Assembly (NCBI GenBank): GCA_021463865.1
Contig: JAJTXY010000010.1
Location: 1 to 64,000, forward strand
Reading direction: 5' to 3'
DNA: 64,000 nt
Origin: Anaerolineae bacterium
Lineage (GTDB): Bacteria > Chloroflexota > Anaerolineae > Aggregatilineales > J027
In this document: positions 56,496 to 61,604 of the stretch, piece by piece
How positions within the stretch are numbered: position 1 is the first letter of the stretch
Layout: every line of letters starts with the position of its first letter
Notes under the pieces: generated by a model
Database searches by the model: none
What the model was told of the DNA's origin: nothing
The model's input: only the letters and a program-made list of their open reading frames with translations
Made by a program: the position numbers and the translations under genes

Positions 56496-56690
56496 AATCA
56501 TGTCCTCAATAGCGTTTTATATCTAACCTGACTATAACCCAACGCCTGCACTACGTCACCATCTGGCTTGCCGAAGTGAATTATTGCGGCGGGAAGAAAA
56601 ATTTGCGTTACAATGGAACTCAATTACACGCTTTATGCGTCGTATTCCTTAGTACGACTTGAGCCATTTCATCAACTGAGGTGTGAAAAA

Positions 56691-57350
56691 ATGTCGGAAC
56701 ATTCGGATAAACCGGTTCTGATTATCATGGAAGGCGAACGCGCTGGTCAACGCTGGACAATCGAAGGGGACACCTTTGTAGTCGGGCGTGGCGGTGAATG
56801 TGAATTAGTTTTGCCAGAACGTCAAGTATCACGGGAGCATATCCGCATTTACCGCGACGGGAACGAATATTTTCTACAGGACTTGGGCAGTAAAAACGGC
56901 ACATGGGTCAATGGGGTAGAAATCCCGAATCAGACGATTGCCCTACACGATGGCGACGAAATCTCCATTTCCAAAGTGGTGAAGATTACCTTCGTGGGCA
57001 GTGAAGCCACCGCGCCAATGGTCTTAAGCAAGATGGCAGCACAACAAGGTCGCCTGCAATTGGATCGAGATTCACGTCGTGTGTTTATCAATGAACAAGA
57101 GGTTGACCCCCCTCTCAGCCTGCCCCAATATCGGCTATTGGAACTCCTATATGATGCGGCGGGGGCGGTCAAAACCCGTGAAGAAGTGGTCTCATATGTC
57201 TGGCCCAATGCCGTTGGTGAAGGGGTCAGCGAACAAGCGATTGATGCGTTGGTGCGTCGTCTGCGTGACCGCCTCAATGAAATTGACCCCGAATATCAAT
57301 ATGTGGTAACGGTGCGTGGGCATGGCTTCCGGCTGGAAAACCCGAATTAA
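56691..57350 (+). CDS. FHA domain plus winged-helix DNA-binding regulator
   Basis: 219 residues from ATG 56691, with GAGGTG 7 nt upstream; a longer frame from 56613 is unlikely. An FHA domain (about 10-100; VVGRGGECELVLPERQVSRE and DLGSKNGTWVNG) binds phosphothreonine peptides. A C-terminal OmpR/PhoB-type winged helix follows (about 120-217; LSLPQYRLLELLYDAAGAV, AIDALVRRLRDRLNEI, YVVTVRGHGFRLE). There is no receiver domain, so control would come from Ser/Thr kinase signalling, as for EmbR-like proteins, with domain order reversed. No kinase is adjacent. It lies 21 bp before xisH but its relation to that cassette is unknown. Confidence 0.92.
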   Translation: MSEHSDKPVLIIMEGERAGQRWTIEGDTFVVGRGGECELVLPERQVSREHIRIYRDGNEYFLQDLGSKNGTWVNGVEIPNQTIALHDGDEISISKVVKITFVGSEATAPMVLSKMAAQQGRLQLDRDSRRVFINEQEVDPPLSLPQYRLLELLYDAAGAVKTREEVVSYVWPNAVGEGVSEQAIDALVRRLRDRLNEIDPEYQYVVTVRGHGFRLENPN

Positions 57351-57371: not shown

Positions 57372-57779
57372 ATGCCAGTAAAAGACTACTATCACGATGT
57401 GGTCGCCCGCGCCCTAATCAAAGATGGTTGGACAATCACCGATGAACAGGTCAAAGTCATCGTAGATGAACGTAATCTATATATTGACCTTGAAGCCACC
57501 AAAGATTCAACGGGGTTGATTATCTTGGTGGAAGTCAAAGAGTTAGATGATGTTAGGTCGCCTATCGAGGCGCTTGCAAATGCGGTAGGGAAGTATTTTC
57601 TCTATCGCACCTCCTTAGACGACAAGGGAATCAACACACCACTATACTTAGCGATGTCAGTCGCTGCCTATCACCGTATCCTTAGTGAAACAATTGGCAA
57701 ACTCGCAGTGGGTCATGGAAGGATTTCTCTATTGATATTTGACCCAGAACAAGAGGAGGTCGTCAGATGGATTCCTTGA
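57372..57779 (+). CDS. xisH: XisH family protein
   Basis: 135 residues: MPVKDYYHDVVARALIKDGW, then LYIDLEAT and ILVEVKEL, ending LIFDPEQEEVVRWIP, the layout of cyanobacterial XisH. Asp 39 and the E-x-K pair Glu 54/Lys 56 fit the core of a PD-(D/E)xK nuclease fold, which XisH proteins are known to resemble. In Anabaena, XisH and XisI are needed with the XisF recombinase to excise the fdxN element, but most copies, as here, have no XisF or element nearby, so their general role is open. The stop overlaps the xisI start by 13 bp. Confidence 0.9.
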   Translation: MPVKDYYHDVVARALIKDGWTITDEQVKVIVDERNLYIDLEATKDSTGLIILVEVKELDDVRSPIEALANAVGKYFLYRTSLDDKGINTPLYLAMSVAAYHRILSETIGKLAVGHGRISLLIFDPEQEEVVRWIP

Positions 57780-58087
57780 AAAAAACCGTTTATGAAGTCA
57801 TCGCTGGCTATACAGGGAAAGCGCTCAATGGGTATAGCTATCTAACCACAAATGAAGACCATACCTTGTTGGCAGTAGTAGACATCGAGCAACCAAAGGA
57901 GAAACGCCAACCTCACTATGCAGGAACGAGTGTCATTGTCCAAATAATAGGGGATATGGTCATCATTGACCGCGACCAAAATGATAAACTTGTCGTAGAT
58001 GCCCTCCTTCAAGCAGGCATCCCTCGCGAACAAATCATCCTTGCCTATGCAGGGGAATCCCTACAAGAAATAAGTCCCAGTAGATGA
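57767..58087 (+). CDS. xisI: XisI family protein
   Basis: 106 residues: LKKTVYEVIAGYTGKALNG, a beta-rich middle with VIVQIIGDMVIIDRDQND and the family ending LLQAGIPREQIILAYAGESL. The XisI family always travels with XisH and is of unknown biochemistry; the pair was named for fdxN-element excision in heterocyst-forming cyanobacteria. Here it starts inside the xisH frame (13-bp overlap), so equal expression is likely. The C-terminal 20 residues found in many homologues (after the fourth helix) seem shortened to SPSR. Confidence 0.88.
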   Translation: MDSLKKTVYEVIAGYTGKALNGYSYLTTNEDHTLLAVVDIEQPKEKRQPHYAGTSVIVQIIGDMVIIDRDQNDKLVVDALLQAGIPREQIILAYAGESLQEISPSR

Positions 58088-58507: not shown

Positions 58508-59563
58508 TTATGTCAACAACCCCCGCGCCGCCACATCCCACACCACCTCCACCTGCCCATTCCGTACCCCGACCATCTGATTAAACAGATTGCTCACTAC
58601 GCAGCAATGGTTGGGAATAATCGTCACCCGTTCGCCGATAGTAGGTTTAGTCGCGCACGCCGAAAAATCCACATGCCCATGCTCTTCCGAAAGCTGATAA
58701 ATCTGTGCCTCCGGGTATTCCAAAATCAAGCCATGCCCCGTTAATCCTATCAAATCCGACGACAGAGTTTTACTCCCCGCGTCCAAGATACCCCGTTCGG
58801 CGGTAGGTCGGCTGATGACAGTGCTGATTATTTTCATAGCACATTGGTCAACGGTCATTGCACCTGCTTTGAGTGTGGCCCGATCCCCATAGACATACGT
58901 CCCGGCCCGATACTCCGTGACACCCGTATGCATATGGGCCTCCCAGATTTTCGGTGTACCCCCCAAGCTGACTCGCTCAACCGGAATACCCCGTTTTTCA
59001 AGCAGAGATTTAGTTTCTTGAACAAATAGCGCGGTGTTTTGATTGGCAGGATAGGTCATCAATCCACCAAATTTCAGCGAGGGCATATCGGCAATCACAC
59101 ATGCCAGATCAACCGCCTGTTGGGGATTTTGCACGCCGCAGCGTCCTGAACCCGTATCAAATTCGACCAGTACGGTTAATTCCCGGCGTGCTTGTTGTGC
59201 CGCCTGTACATATCCCCGCACCGTGTATTCTGAATCCGCTGTCACACTGATTTCCGCCGCTTGCATGAGTGCCGCCAGCCGTGCCAATTTTGGCTCACCC
59301 ATCAGGTTATAGGGGATAAAAATGTCATGGATGCCCACCTGCACCATGCTTTCCGCCTCACCTAATTTTTGACAGGTAATCCCCGCCGCGCCTGCCTGCA
59401 ATTGCATCAGTGCAATCTGTGGGATTTTATGGGTTTTGATGTGAGGGCGATTCAAGATTTGGTGACCATCCAAATACTGCTGCAAACGGGCAATATTGGC
59501 TTCAAGGCGATCTAAATCAATAACAGCAACCGGGGTATCAAGTTCGGAAATGTGCATAGGCAT
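58508..59563 (-). CDS. D-threonine aldolase-like PLP enzyme (alanine-racemase fold)
   Basis: 351 residues from ATG 59563; a second ATG two codons on (59557) and a TTG at 59590 also fit, and no strong ribosome site decides. The PLP barrel starts LDTPVAVIDLDRLEANIARL with the PLP lysine in RPHIKTHKIPQ; VLVEFDTGSGRCGVQ and GAGxx-like phosphate loop VSLGGTPKIWEAH follow. The C-terminal beta domain has the PNHCCVVSN metal site (H-x-C), typical of D-threonine aldolase and D-serine dehydratase-like enzymes. Splits beta-hydroxy D-amino acids, or dehydrates D-serine; which one is unknown. Likely co-transcribed with the deaminase gene 49 bp upstream. Confidence 0.88.
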   Translation of the reverse strand: MPMHISELDTPVAVIDLDRLEANIARLQQYLDGHQILNRPHIKTHKIPQIALMQLQAGAAGITCQKLGEAESMVQVGIHDIFIPYNLMGEPKLARLAALMQAAEISVTADSEYTVRGYVQAAQQARRELTVLVEFDTGSGRCGVQNPQQAVDLACVIADMPSLKFGGLMTYPANQNTALFVQETKSLLEKRGIPVERVSLGGTPKIWEAHMHTGVTEYRAGTYVYGDRATLKAGAMTVDQCAMKIISTVISRPTAERGILDAGSKTLSSDLIGLTGHGLILEYPEAQIYQLSEEHGHVDFSACATKPTIGERVTIIPNHCCVVSNLFNQMVGVRNGQVEVVWDVAARGLLT

Positions 59564-59612
59564 TGGTTGAAAAATAGACCCCTTCCCCAAAATGAAGAAG
59601 GGGCATCATCCA

Positions 59613-61604
59613 CTAATTGGGAACGGCGACAGGCCCACCCGCCAGTTCTACATAATCCATCGCCACTCGTTCGTCGGCAGCGACCTGCAAAATCTCGCTC
59701 AACATTTCGGCGATCAGCGAGGCTTTATATTCGGCATCCCGCATTGACCATGTGCGTGATTTGATTTCGAGATAGGTGTGATCGGCTTTGGGCTTTAGGA
59801 AGTTGTCGAGATTGACATAGAATTGAACGCCTTTATACAAAATACTCCAGCGGCGGCGTTCTTTGGTAATCTCACGCTCCTCGGCCCCCCTGAAATATTC
59901 GTGATAGAAACGCAGCGGGCGATCTGCCGGGGCGTAAAATTGGGAATGGGAGAGCAAGACGGCCCGATCAAATTCGCGTTCTTTGGTCGGCGACGTGTAG
60001 GTCAGGCGTGTGCGTACTCCGGTCACTTCATTGGCTTCATCCAATGTGTCATCTTCACGATAGCGTACCCGTGACCCATCGTTAAACAGGAAATACGTGT
60101 CATATTGACGATAACGGGTTTCCTTGACGATTTGAACATCAGGGTGTTCCAGCAAACGCTGCAACATTTCGGGATGATCAAAGCGCGTCTTCAGTTGAAT
60201 CTCAAAACTCTCTTGGCGCTGGAAACTGGCAATCGAGAGTAGCTTGGACATAATGTTGCCAGAGTATTCGCGGATATATTTGTCAATCTGCACCGCAATG
60301 ACTTGGGCCTGCTCCAAAATGGGTTGCAGATCAATCGTCAACAGTTGGCGATCTCGCATCAGCCACACCCCATTACACATGACATGCGCCACATCGGTGC
60401 TCTTAGTCGAATACACCAACTGACCATAGATGCCGTCAGGGTCATGGGTAAAAAATGGCGTATTATGTAGGGTCTTTTGATTAACCATGATAATATCAGC
60501 CCGCTTGCCAACCTCAAGGCTGCCTGTAATATCCCCAACATGACAGGCCTGTGCGCCAAGCCGGGTCGCCATCAATAAGGCTTCTTTGGCAGGCAGAGTT
60601 GTGGGGTCATTGGTAGCCACCTTCGCCAACAATGCCGCCAGATGAATTTCGGTAAACATATCAAGGTCATTATTGCTGGCTGTCCCGTCTGTGCCAATAC
60701 CCACATTCACCCCTTGATCCAACATCGTTTTGACTGGGGCGATACCGCTGGCGAGTTTCAAATTGCTGGTTGGGTTGTGTGACACCCCGGCATTGTGATT
60801 ACGAAGCGTCCGAATCTCACCTGAGTCAATATGGACACAGTGGGCACATAAGCACTTATGATCGAGGATGCCCATTTTCTTGATACGCGGCACAACGGGC
60901 ATCCCAAATTCGTTGCGACTGTCTTCAACCTCCTGTTTTGTTTCCGCCACATGGATAATCACTGGGACATCATATTTATGAGCAAGGTCGGCGCAGAGTT
61001 GCAGCAGTTCGTCAGTGCTGGTATAGGGAGCATGGGGCGCAACCGATGGGACTACTAAGGAATGGCCCTTCCACTGTTGTATAAACTTTTCGGTATAGGC
61101 AAGGCTGTCTTCATAACTTTCCGCATCAGGCGATGGGAATTTTAGGATGGTTTGACCACATAGCCCCCGTACCCCAACTTCGGCGGCGGCGCGGGCCACT
61201 TCCGATTCAAAATAGTACATATCCGCAAAACAGGTCGTGCCGCTGAGAATTAATTCCGCCAGTGCCAGTTTCGCGCCGAGATAGACAAATTCTTCATTGA
61301 CATAGATTTTCTCAGCGGGCATGATGTACCCCATCAGCCATACATCCAAGCGCAAATCGTCTGCCAAGCCGCGCATCAAGGTCATCGAAAGATGAGTATG
61401 GGCATTCACCAAACCGGGCATAATCACCTGCCCGCTGCAATCCACCACCTCTGGTGCTTCAAAATTTGCCACAATCTCCGCTGTCGGCCCAACCGCAACA
61501 ATTTCCGCACCTTTGATCGCTACGGCCCCATCAGAATAGGTGTCCATCCCATCATTCATGGTCAGGACATAGCCCTTGATGAGCAACCGATCTACCTTTT
61601 GCAT
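59613..61604 (-). CDS. amidohydrolase (SAH/MTA deaminase-like) fused to CYTH-like domain
   Basis: 663 residues; AAAGGAGC precedes the ATG. Residues 1-440 form a metal-dependent amidohydrolase of the adenosine/SAH/MTA deaminase (MtaD, TrzN-like) group: NAHTHLSMTLMRGLADDL (His 69, His 71), IIHVAETKQEV (His 218, Glu 221), SHNPTSNLKLASG and GTDGTASNNDLDMF (Asp 306). Residues about 455-640 look like a CYTH triphosphate-tunnel domain: FEIQLKTRF (E468, K472; the middle Glu of E-x-E-x-K is Gln), QYDTYF, RVRYRE, YLEIKSRT. Deamination of purine nucleosides joined to a triphosphate-binding module is unusual. Its promoter is at 61682-61709. Confidence 0.87.
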   Translation of the reverse strand: MQKVDRLLIKGYVLTMNDGMDTYSDGAVAIKGAEIVAVGPTAEIVANFEAPEVVDCSGQVIMPGLVNAHTHLSMTLMRGLADDLRLDVWLMGYIMPAEKIYVNEEFVYLGAKLALAELILSGTTCFADMYYFESEVARAAAEVGVRGLCGQTILKFPSPDAESYEDSLAYTEKFIQQWKGHSLVVPSVAPHAPYTSTDELLQLCADLAHKYDVPVIIHVAETKQEVEDSRNEFGMPVVPRIKKMGILDHKCLCAHCVHIDSGEIRTLRNHNAGVSHNPTSNLKLASGIAPVKTMLDQGVNVGIGTDGTASNNDLDMFTEIHLAALLAKVATNDPTTLPAKEALLMATRLGAQACHVGDITGSLEVGKRADIIMVNQKTLHNTPFFTHDPDGIYGQLVYSTKSTDVAHVMCNGVWLMRDRQLLTIDLQPILEQAQVIAVQIDKYIREYSGNIMSKLLSIASFQRQESFEIQLKTRFDHPEMLQRLLEHPDVQIVKETRYRQYDTYFLFNDGSRVRYREDDTLDEANEVTGVRTRLTYTSPTKEREFDRAVLLSHSQFYAPADRPLRFYHEYFRGAEEREITKERRRWSILYKGVQFYVNLDNFLKPKADHTYLEIKSRTWSMRDAEYKASLIAEMLSEILQVAADERVAMDYVELAGGPVAVPN

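Follow-up and report, generated by a model that had tools for sequence, protein, structure and literature searches.

A metal-dependent deaminase fused to a CYTH/TTM tunnel domain with a rewritten metal site in Chloroflexota

In the window (the whole stretch of 64,000 nucleotides that was analysed), one minus-strand gene encodes a metal-dependent deaminase joined to a tunnel domain of the CYTH/TTM type. Both domains come from known families; the fusion is fixed across much of the phylum Chloroflexota, with a consistent non-canonical tunnel signature. The reading favoured here, to which a probability of about 0.55 was given, is that of an ancient deaminase whose one-metal tunnel would bind a triphosphate-like ligand without hydrolysing it, probably as a regulator. 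The features concerned are listed in Table 1.

Table 1. Features of the fused gene and of its surroundings in the window
Feature	Position	Strand	Basis or remark
FHA/winged-helix regulator	56613-57350		beside the XisH/XisI pair
XisH gene	57372-57779	+	E 8.2e-30
XisI gene	57767-58087	+	E 8.5e-8; overlaps the XisH gene
D-threonine-aldolase-like gene	58508-59590		beside the fused gene
Fused gene, amidohydrolase-type nucleoside deaminase + CYTH/TTM	59613..61604	-	open frame, 663 aa
Deaminase domain, residues 1-445	60270..61604	-	Pfam, fold match, conservation
Interdomain join, about residues 426-460	60225..60329	-	full-length AlphaFold2 model
CYTH/TTM tunnel domain, residues about 460-655	59643..60227	-	AlphaFold2, fold searches
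Altered hallmark E468-I-Q470-L-K472 (canonical ExExK)	60189..60203	-	conservation across copies
Altered strand-8 motif E613-I-K615 (canonical ExE)	59760..59768	-	conservation across copies
CHAT (caspase-like) protein with CARDB domain and hydrophobic segment	61714-63819	-	just upstream of the fused gene

Architecture, spread and descent of the fusion

The frame runs from an ATG start at 61604 to a stop included at 59613, over 663 codons without internal stop. A sequence-only reading of this DNA had proposed a single frame joining a deaminase to a CYTH-like region, and the frame check confirmed it as an uninterrupted minus-strand gene; the residues His69, His71, His218, Glu221 and Asp306 and the motifs E468-x-Q470-x-K472, QYDTYF (500-505), RVRYRE (512-517) and YLEIKSRT (611-618) were all found where that reading had placed them. 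The two-domain interpretation is backed by fold prediction, fold search and the conservation of the fusion. The full-length AlphaFold2 model (pLDDT 91, pTM 0.85) has predicted helices at 426-449 and 451-458 in the interdomain join, without a long disordered linker.

The C-terminal domain was found in 51 of 61 genomes (the source genome and its relatives), and both domains lay in one frame at all 110 loci obtained from the genome search and from a scan of GTDB contigs, in which 80 loci were kept. A search for the same fusion in other Chloroflexota, as had been suggested, recovered it in 89 of 400 genomes of the phylum (50 of the 55 from the same class, and 39 outside the class). Since the same continuous frame recurs in many independently assembled genomes, an assembly, frameshift or sequencing error is ruled out as the origin of the fusion. 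The contig scan returned Chloroflexota-type loci only, save two cyanobacteria-labelled MAG contigs, L074 (JAHHHY010000001.1) and L056, which bear the labels Pleurocapsa minor or uncultured cyanobacterium and carry a Chloroflexota-type fusion at 52-56% identity; these bins are likely mislabelled or contaminated.

No genuine standalone copy was found among the loci examined: the short frames in three genomes (G034, G202 and G446) stop at contig ends, the match in G034 starting near base 1 of its contig and the fused gene of G202 being split across two contigs. A 708-aa frame in G096, considered as a second fusion, was rejected as a long upstream read-through. One genome holds two fused copies on different contigs (L196 and L197, at G363:C53 and C121), with a short frame of similar sequence on the opposite strand after each.

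When the phylum was searched with the deaminase domain, matches of at least 47% identity corresponded to the fused group and those of 41% or less to ordinary single-domain paralogues. A 2.7 Mb genome (G079) has 11 such paralogues among the matches listed, an unusual expansion. In a tree of 44 deaminase domains, all fused copies, together with the contig-split copy of G202, formed one clade (support 100/100), which splits into the non-class families on one side and the class's own copies with one outside family (f89) on the other. This clade and the wide conservation of the fusion are consistent with a single fusion and mostly vertical descent thereafter; the two-domain protein would have arisen only once, in the ancestor shared by several Chloroflexota lineages, and been retained since.

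Gene neighbourhoods were considered as a source of functional clues and rejected, as none of the neighbours is widely shared, and no conserved operon partner pointing to a pathway was found at the loci examined. The D-threonine-aldolase-like gene, previously taken for an operon partner, adjoins the fusion in 4 of 95 loci, all of the genus itself, and being genus-specific it carries no functional clue. A divergent membrane-type protein (701 aa in one example) lies near 44 of the 95 loci, cinA near five, and CoaE (dephospho-CoA kinase) directly after the fusion in six (L155, L156, L157, L158, L160 and L161), in a part of the phylum where its reading frame sometimes abuts the fused gene. In L193 and L071 the gene immediately after the fusion encodes purine nucleoside phosphorylase (PNP), and in L147 a PNP gene lies two genes upstream of the fusion; this is a modest hint at nucleoside catabolism. 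The CHAT/CARDB gene was found beside the fusion in four loci only, apparently of the same genus. XisH- and XisI-like neighbours, a pair whose name derives from excision control in cyanobacteria, also occur at a few related loci.

Assignment of the two domains

The N-terminal domain is matched by Pfam Amidohydro_1 at 60-414 (E 1.6e-75), and its model superposes on 4dzh with Z 58.5 and an rmsd of 1.3 over 438 aligned residues, and on 4f0r with Z 57.9. The HxH, H, E, H, D set is present on a TIM-barrel amidohydrolase fold: in a conservation set of 100 non-redundant (nr85) fused proteins, with identity to the window protein down to 40%, the metal and catalytic residues H69, H71, H191, H218, E221 and D306 are invariant, as are E98, R146 and D160. 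Fold and catalytic residues place this domain among the metal-dependent SAH/MTA/adenosine deaminases. The fused protein does not reach any NCBIfam equivalog cut-off, the best score being that of PRK09045 (458 bits, cut-off 540), against 430 bits for PRK06038 (cut-off 609) and 353 bits for PRK07228, the 5'-deoxyadenosine deaminase (cut-off 522). We infer both the reaction, probably deamination of an adenosine-type nucleoside, and any exact substrate. A missing SAH hydrolase or MTA phosphorylase was rejected as the reason for having this enzyme, as AhcY (SAH hydrolase) and MTAP (MTA phosphorylase) are both present in the genome; the deaminase is thus not the sole route for the by-products SAH and MTA.

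For the C-terminal domain of the window protein, the Pfam CYTH match at 468-617 is weak (E 0.0033; 17.7 bits, below the curated cut-off of 23.2). It is considered as real homology because 55 of 69 diverse homologues match the same family (best E 9e-8) and the more distant L147 copy passes the cut-off with 24.2 bits. The structure prediction that had been proposed as a check returned an eight-stranded tunnel: the AlphaFold2 model of the domain, built on 69 homologues (pLDDT 90), comprises strands b1 466-474 (bearing ExQxK), b2 490-506, b3 512-521 (RxR), b4 527-537, b5 549-559, b6 575-590 (KxRxRW), b7 593-604 (NxD) and b8 610-618 (ExK), followed by a C-terminal plug helix at 621-638. With VIA-align this model matches Pyrococcus PH1819 (2een; Z 17.9, rmsd 2.2, 168 aligned), SaTTM (7ns9; Z 16.4), the class IV cyclase (Z 15.6), AtTTM1 (Z 14.8) and ygiF (Z 13.7), and with Foldseek it reaches SaTTM 7nsd at E 3.3e-7. 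A profile (A1) compared with PDB sequences gave no match at E up to 5, so the solved relatives are reached through fold only. Judged by its predicted model and the fold matches, the domain is a CYTH/TTM tunnel.

Motifs specific to known activities were also sought in the fused copies. HFxxxxExExK of class IV adenylyl cyclase (CyaB) is absent, positions 462-463 being mostly E/Q and Q/R and never HF, and the second-messenger role once proposed for the fused protein is left unsupported. W/YxRxR of thiamine triphosphatase (strand 3) is likewise lacking in the window protein, which has R512, this position being R in 96 of 100 nr85 copies and W in 2; the RxR of this strand is kept, with R514 and R516 in 100/100.

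The tunnel metal site and its possible function

In all 100 nr85 copies, the ExExK hallmark is replaced by ExQxK (Q470) and the strand-8 ExE by ExK (E613 with K615). Positions invariant in the tunnel across this set are K472, R514, R516, R565, K581, R583, R585, D600 and E613. Motif order, strand order and a profile alignment with a weak middle part assign Q470 to Glu-4 of AtTTM3 (Glu-6 of ygiF) and K615 to Glu-171 (Glu-162 of ygiF); E613 would correspond to Glu-169, which is invariant (Glu-160 in ygiF).

In TTM proteins, metal site 1 binds the substrate and site 2 activates the nucleophile (PMC4641920, PMC8233210). In AtTTM3, Glu-169 belongs to site 1, which holds the substrate, and Glu-2, Glu-4 and Glu-171 form site 2, which positions the nucleophilic water (Martinez et al., PMC4641920). 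Mutation of Glu-2, Glu-4 or Glu-169 strongly reduces PPPi hydrolysis by AtTTM3 (PMC4641920, PMC8233210), and ExExK with ExE have been used as signatures of hydrolysing TTMs (SaTTM study, PMC8233210). With two of the three site-2 glutamates replaced and E613 kept, we infer that substrate binding is kept and the nucleophile-activating site lost; since E468 is also kept, the second metal site may instead be partial or of another kind. The earlier guess that the tunnel may bind rather than hydrolyse had been made from the glutamine and had missed K615, where another metal-2 ligand is lost; the invariance of both Q470 and K615 strengthens it.

The tunnel is considered to be under selection rather than decaying: invariant positions make up 22% of it and 17.5% of the deaminase, and its dN/dS against L005 is 0.064 (0.017 for the deaminase), both ratios being rough as dS exceeds 1. 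A separate, ordinary CYTH protein is present in 40 of 41 genomes, and in the 31 of these proteins examined ExExK and ExE are intact.

In the mechanism proposed, the tunnel would retain the phosphate-gripping basic residues and E613 of metal site 1, with Q470 and K615 in place of two site-2 glutamates. Going by the published two-metal mechanism, it would most likely bind a triphosphate-like ligand complexed with Mg and leave it unhydrolysed. A phosphate compound, for example ATP, PPPi, polyP or an alarmone, may then control or position the deaminase, which is the least certain step. Among the points in favour of a non-hydrolysing binder are the precedent of RESC2, a tunnel without metal-coordinating glutamate motifs that binds a triphosphate (PMC10201420), and the separate ordinary CYTH protein of nearly all genomes. 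A bolder and only tentative proposal is that of a new functional TTM class, in which a one-metal ExQxK/ExK tunnel would sense a triphosphate-type ligand, or transfer it, in direct coupling to purine-nucleoside deamination; if true, energy or alarmone state in Chloroflexota would be tied, within one protein, to the turnover of SAM by-products.

Three other roles for the tunnel were weighed. A still-working tri- or pyrophosphatase, within a bifunctional protein that clears PPPi along with SAH, MTA or 5'-deoxyadenosine (by-products of adenosyl chemistry), would agree with the retention of E468, K472, R514, R516, D600 and E613, with the PNP-type genes adjoining or near the fusion in L071, L193 and L147, and with the pyrophosphatase activity reported for AtTTM2, from a cluster without ExExK and ExE (PMC8233210); it is rather unlikely, as every copy has other residues at two of the three site-2 ligand positions and the genomes already have an intact CYTH protein. 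We regard as improbable a true enzyme with other one-metal chemistry (phosphoryl transfer, as in the Vtc4 polyphosphate polymerase), working beside the deaminase or on its product. Vtc4p does have site 1 without site 2, basic residues replacing the acidic patch (PMC4641920), the six VTC-domain proteins retrieved from relatives all share the strand-8 ExK, and the tunnel is strongly basic and invariant; however, no profile relation to these six proteins was detected (hhalign probability 0.2), E468 is retained, the fused protein has no transmembrane or SPX part, and VTC proteins are rare (4 of 41 genomes). A structural or oligomerisation module without ligand has a parallel in Mediator Med18/20, where the TTM fold is non-catalytic and which is among the fold matches, and is very unlikely given that the invariant residues are mainly charged ones of the tunnel type, which a scaffold could do without.

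TTM domains are best known as phosphatases and cyclases, and non-hydrolytic reuse is known in few cases. Here a tunnel with a uniformly rewritten metal site is fixed on a purine deaminase in most of one class and in some of the phylum outside it. Identifying the ligand would reveal either a metabolic sensor of a new type or new tunnel chemistry, and would put the two-metal model of TTM catalysis to a natural test. Many proteins likely annotated only as amidohydrolase or SAH deaminase carry this unrecognised second domain. A literature search found no paper linking CYTH to an amidohydrolase in this sense, and earlier notice is possible; the published CYTH network has only CHAD and phosphoribulokinase as partners, and databases may list the fused architecture mechanically.

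Comparison with known deaminases and tunnel proteins

The MTA/SAH and adenosine deaminases 4dzh, 4f0r and 1p1m (TM0936) have a fold in common with the fused protein (Z 51.7 to 58.5) and the same metal ligands, with about 40% identity to 4f0r; they are single-domain proteins of about 400 to 470 aa, whereas the fused protein adds a C-terminal tunnel of about 215 aa.

Among tunnel proteins, the Vtc4 polyphosphate polymerase and bacterial VTC resemble the fused tunnel in having metal site 1 only and ExK on strand 8, but differ in their first motif, and no sequence relation to them was detected. VTC was neither among the Pfam matches listed for the tunnel homologues nor among the 50 fold matches listed, and hhalign gives no support for membership; the likeness appears to be one of arrangement, not membership. 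AtTTM1/2 (CYTH network cluster 7, kinase-TTM, PDB 7z67; Z 14.8) also lack ExExK and ExE and have the tunnel fused to a kinase-type domain; their partner is of the phosphoribulokinase family and they are restricted to plants and amoebae. RESC2 of kinetoplastids (8cdp, fold Z 8.9; PMC10201420) binds a 5'-triphosphate without the metal-coordinating glutamate motifs, but is a Cet1-like RNA-binding subunit without enzyme fusion. SaTTM, PH1819, ygiF and AtTTM3 have in common with the fused protein the eight-stranded tunnel, the plug helix, the phosphate-binding Arg/Lys residues and the site-1 Glu; the fused copies all differ from these four in carrying ExQxK instead of ExExK and ExK instead of ExE, and in being joined to a deaminase.
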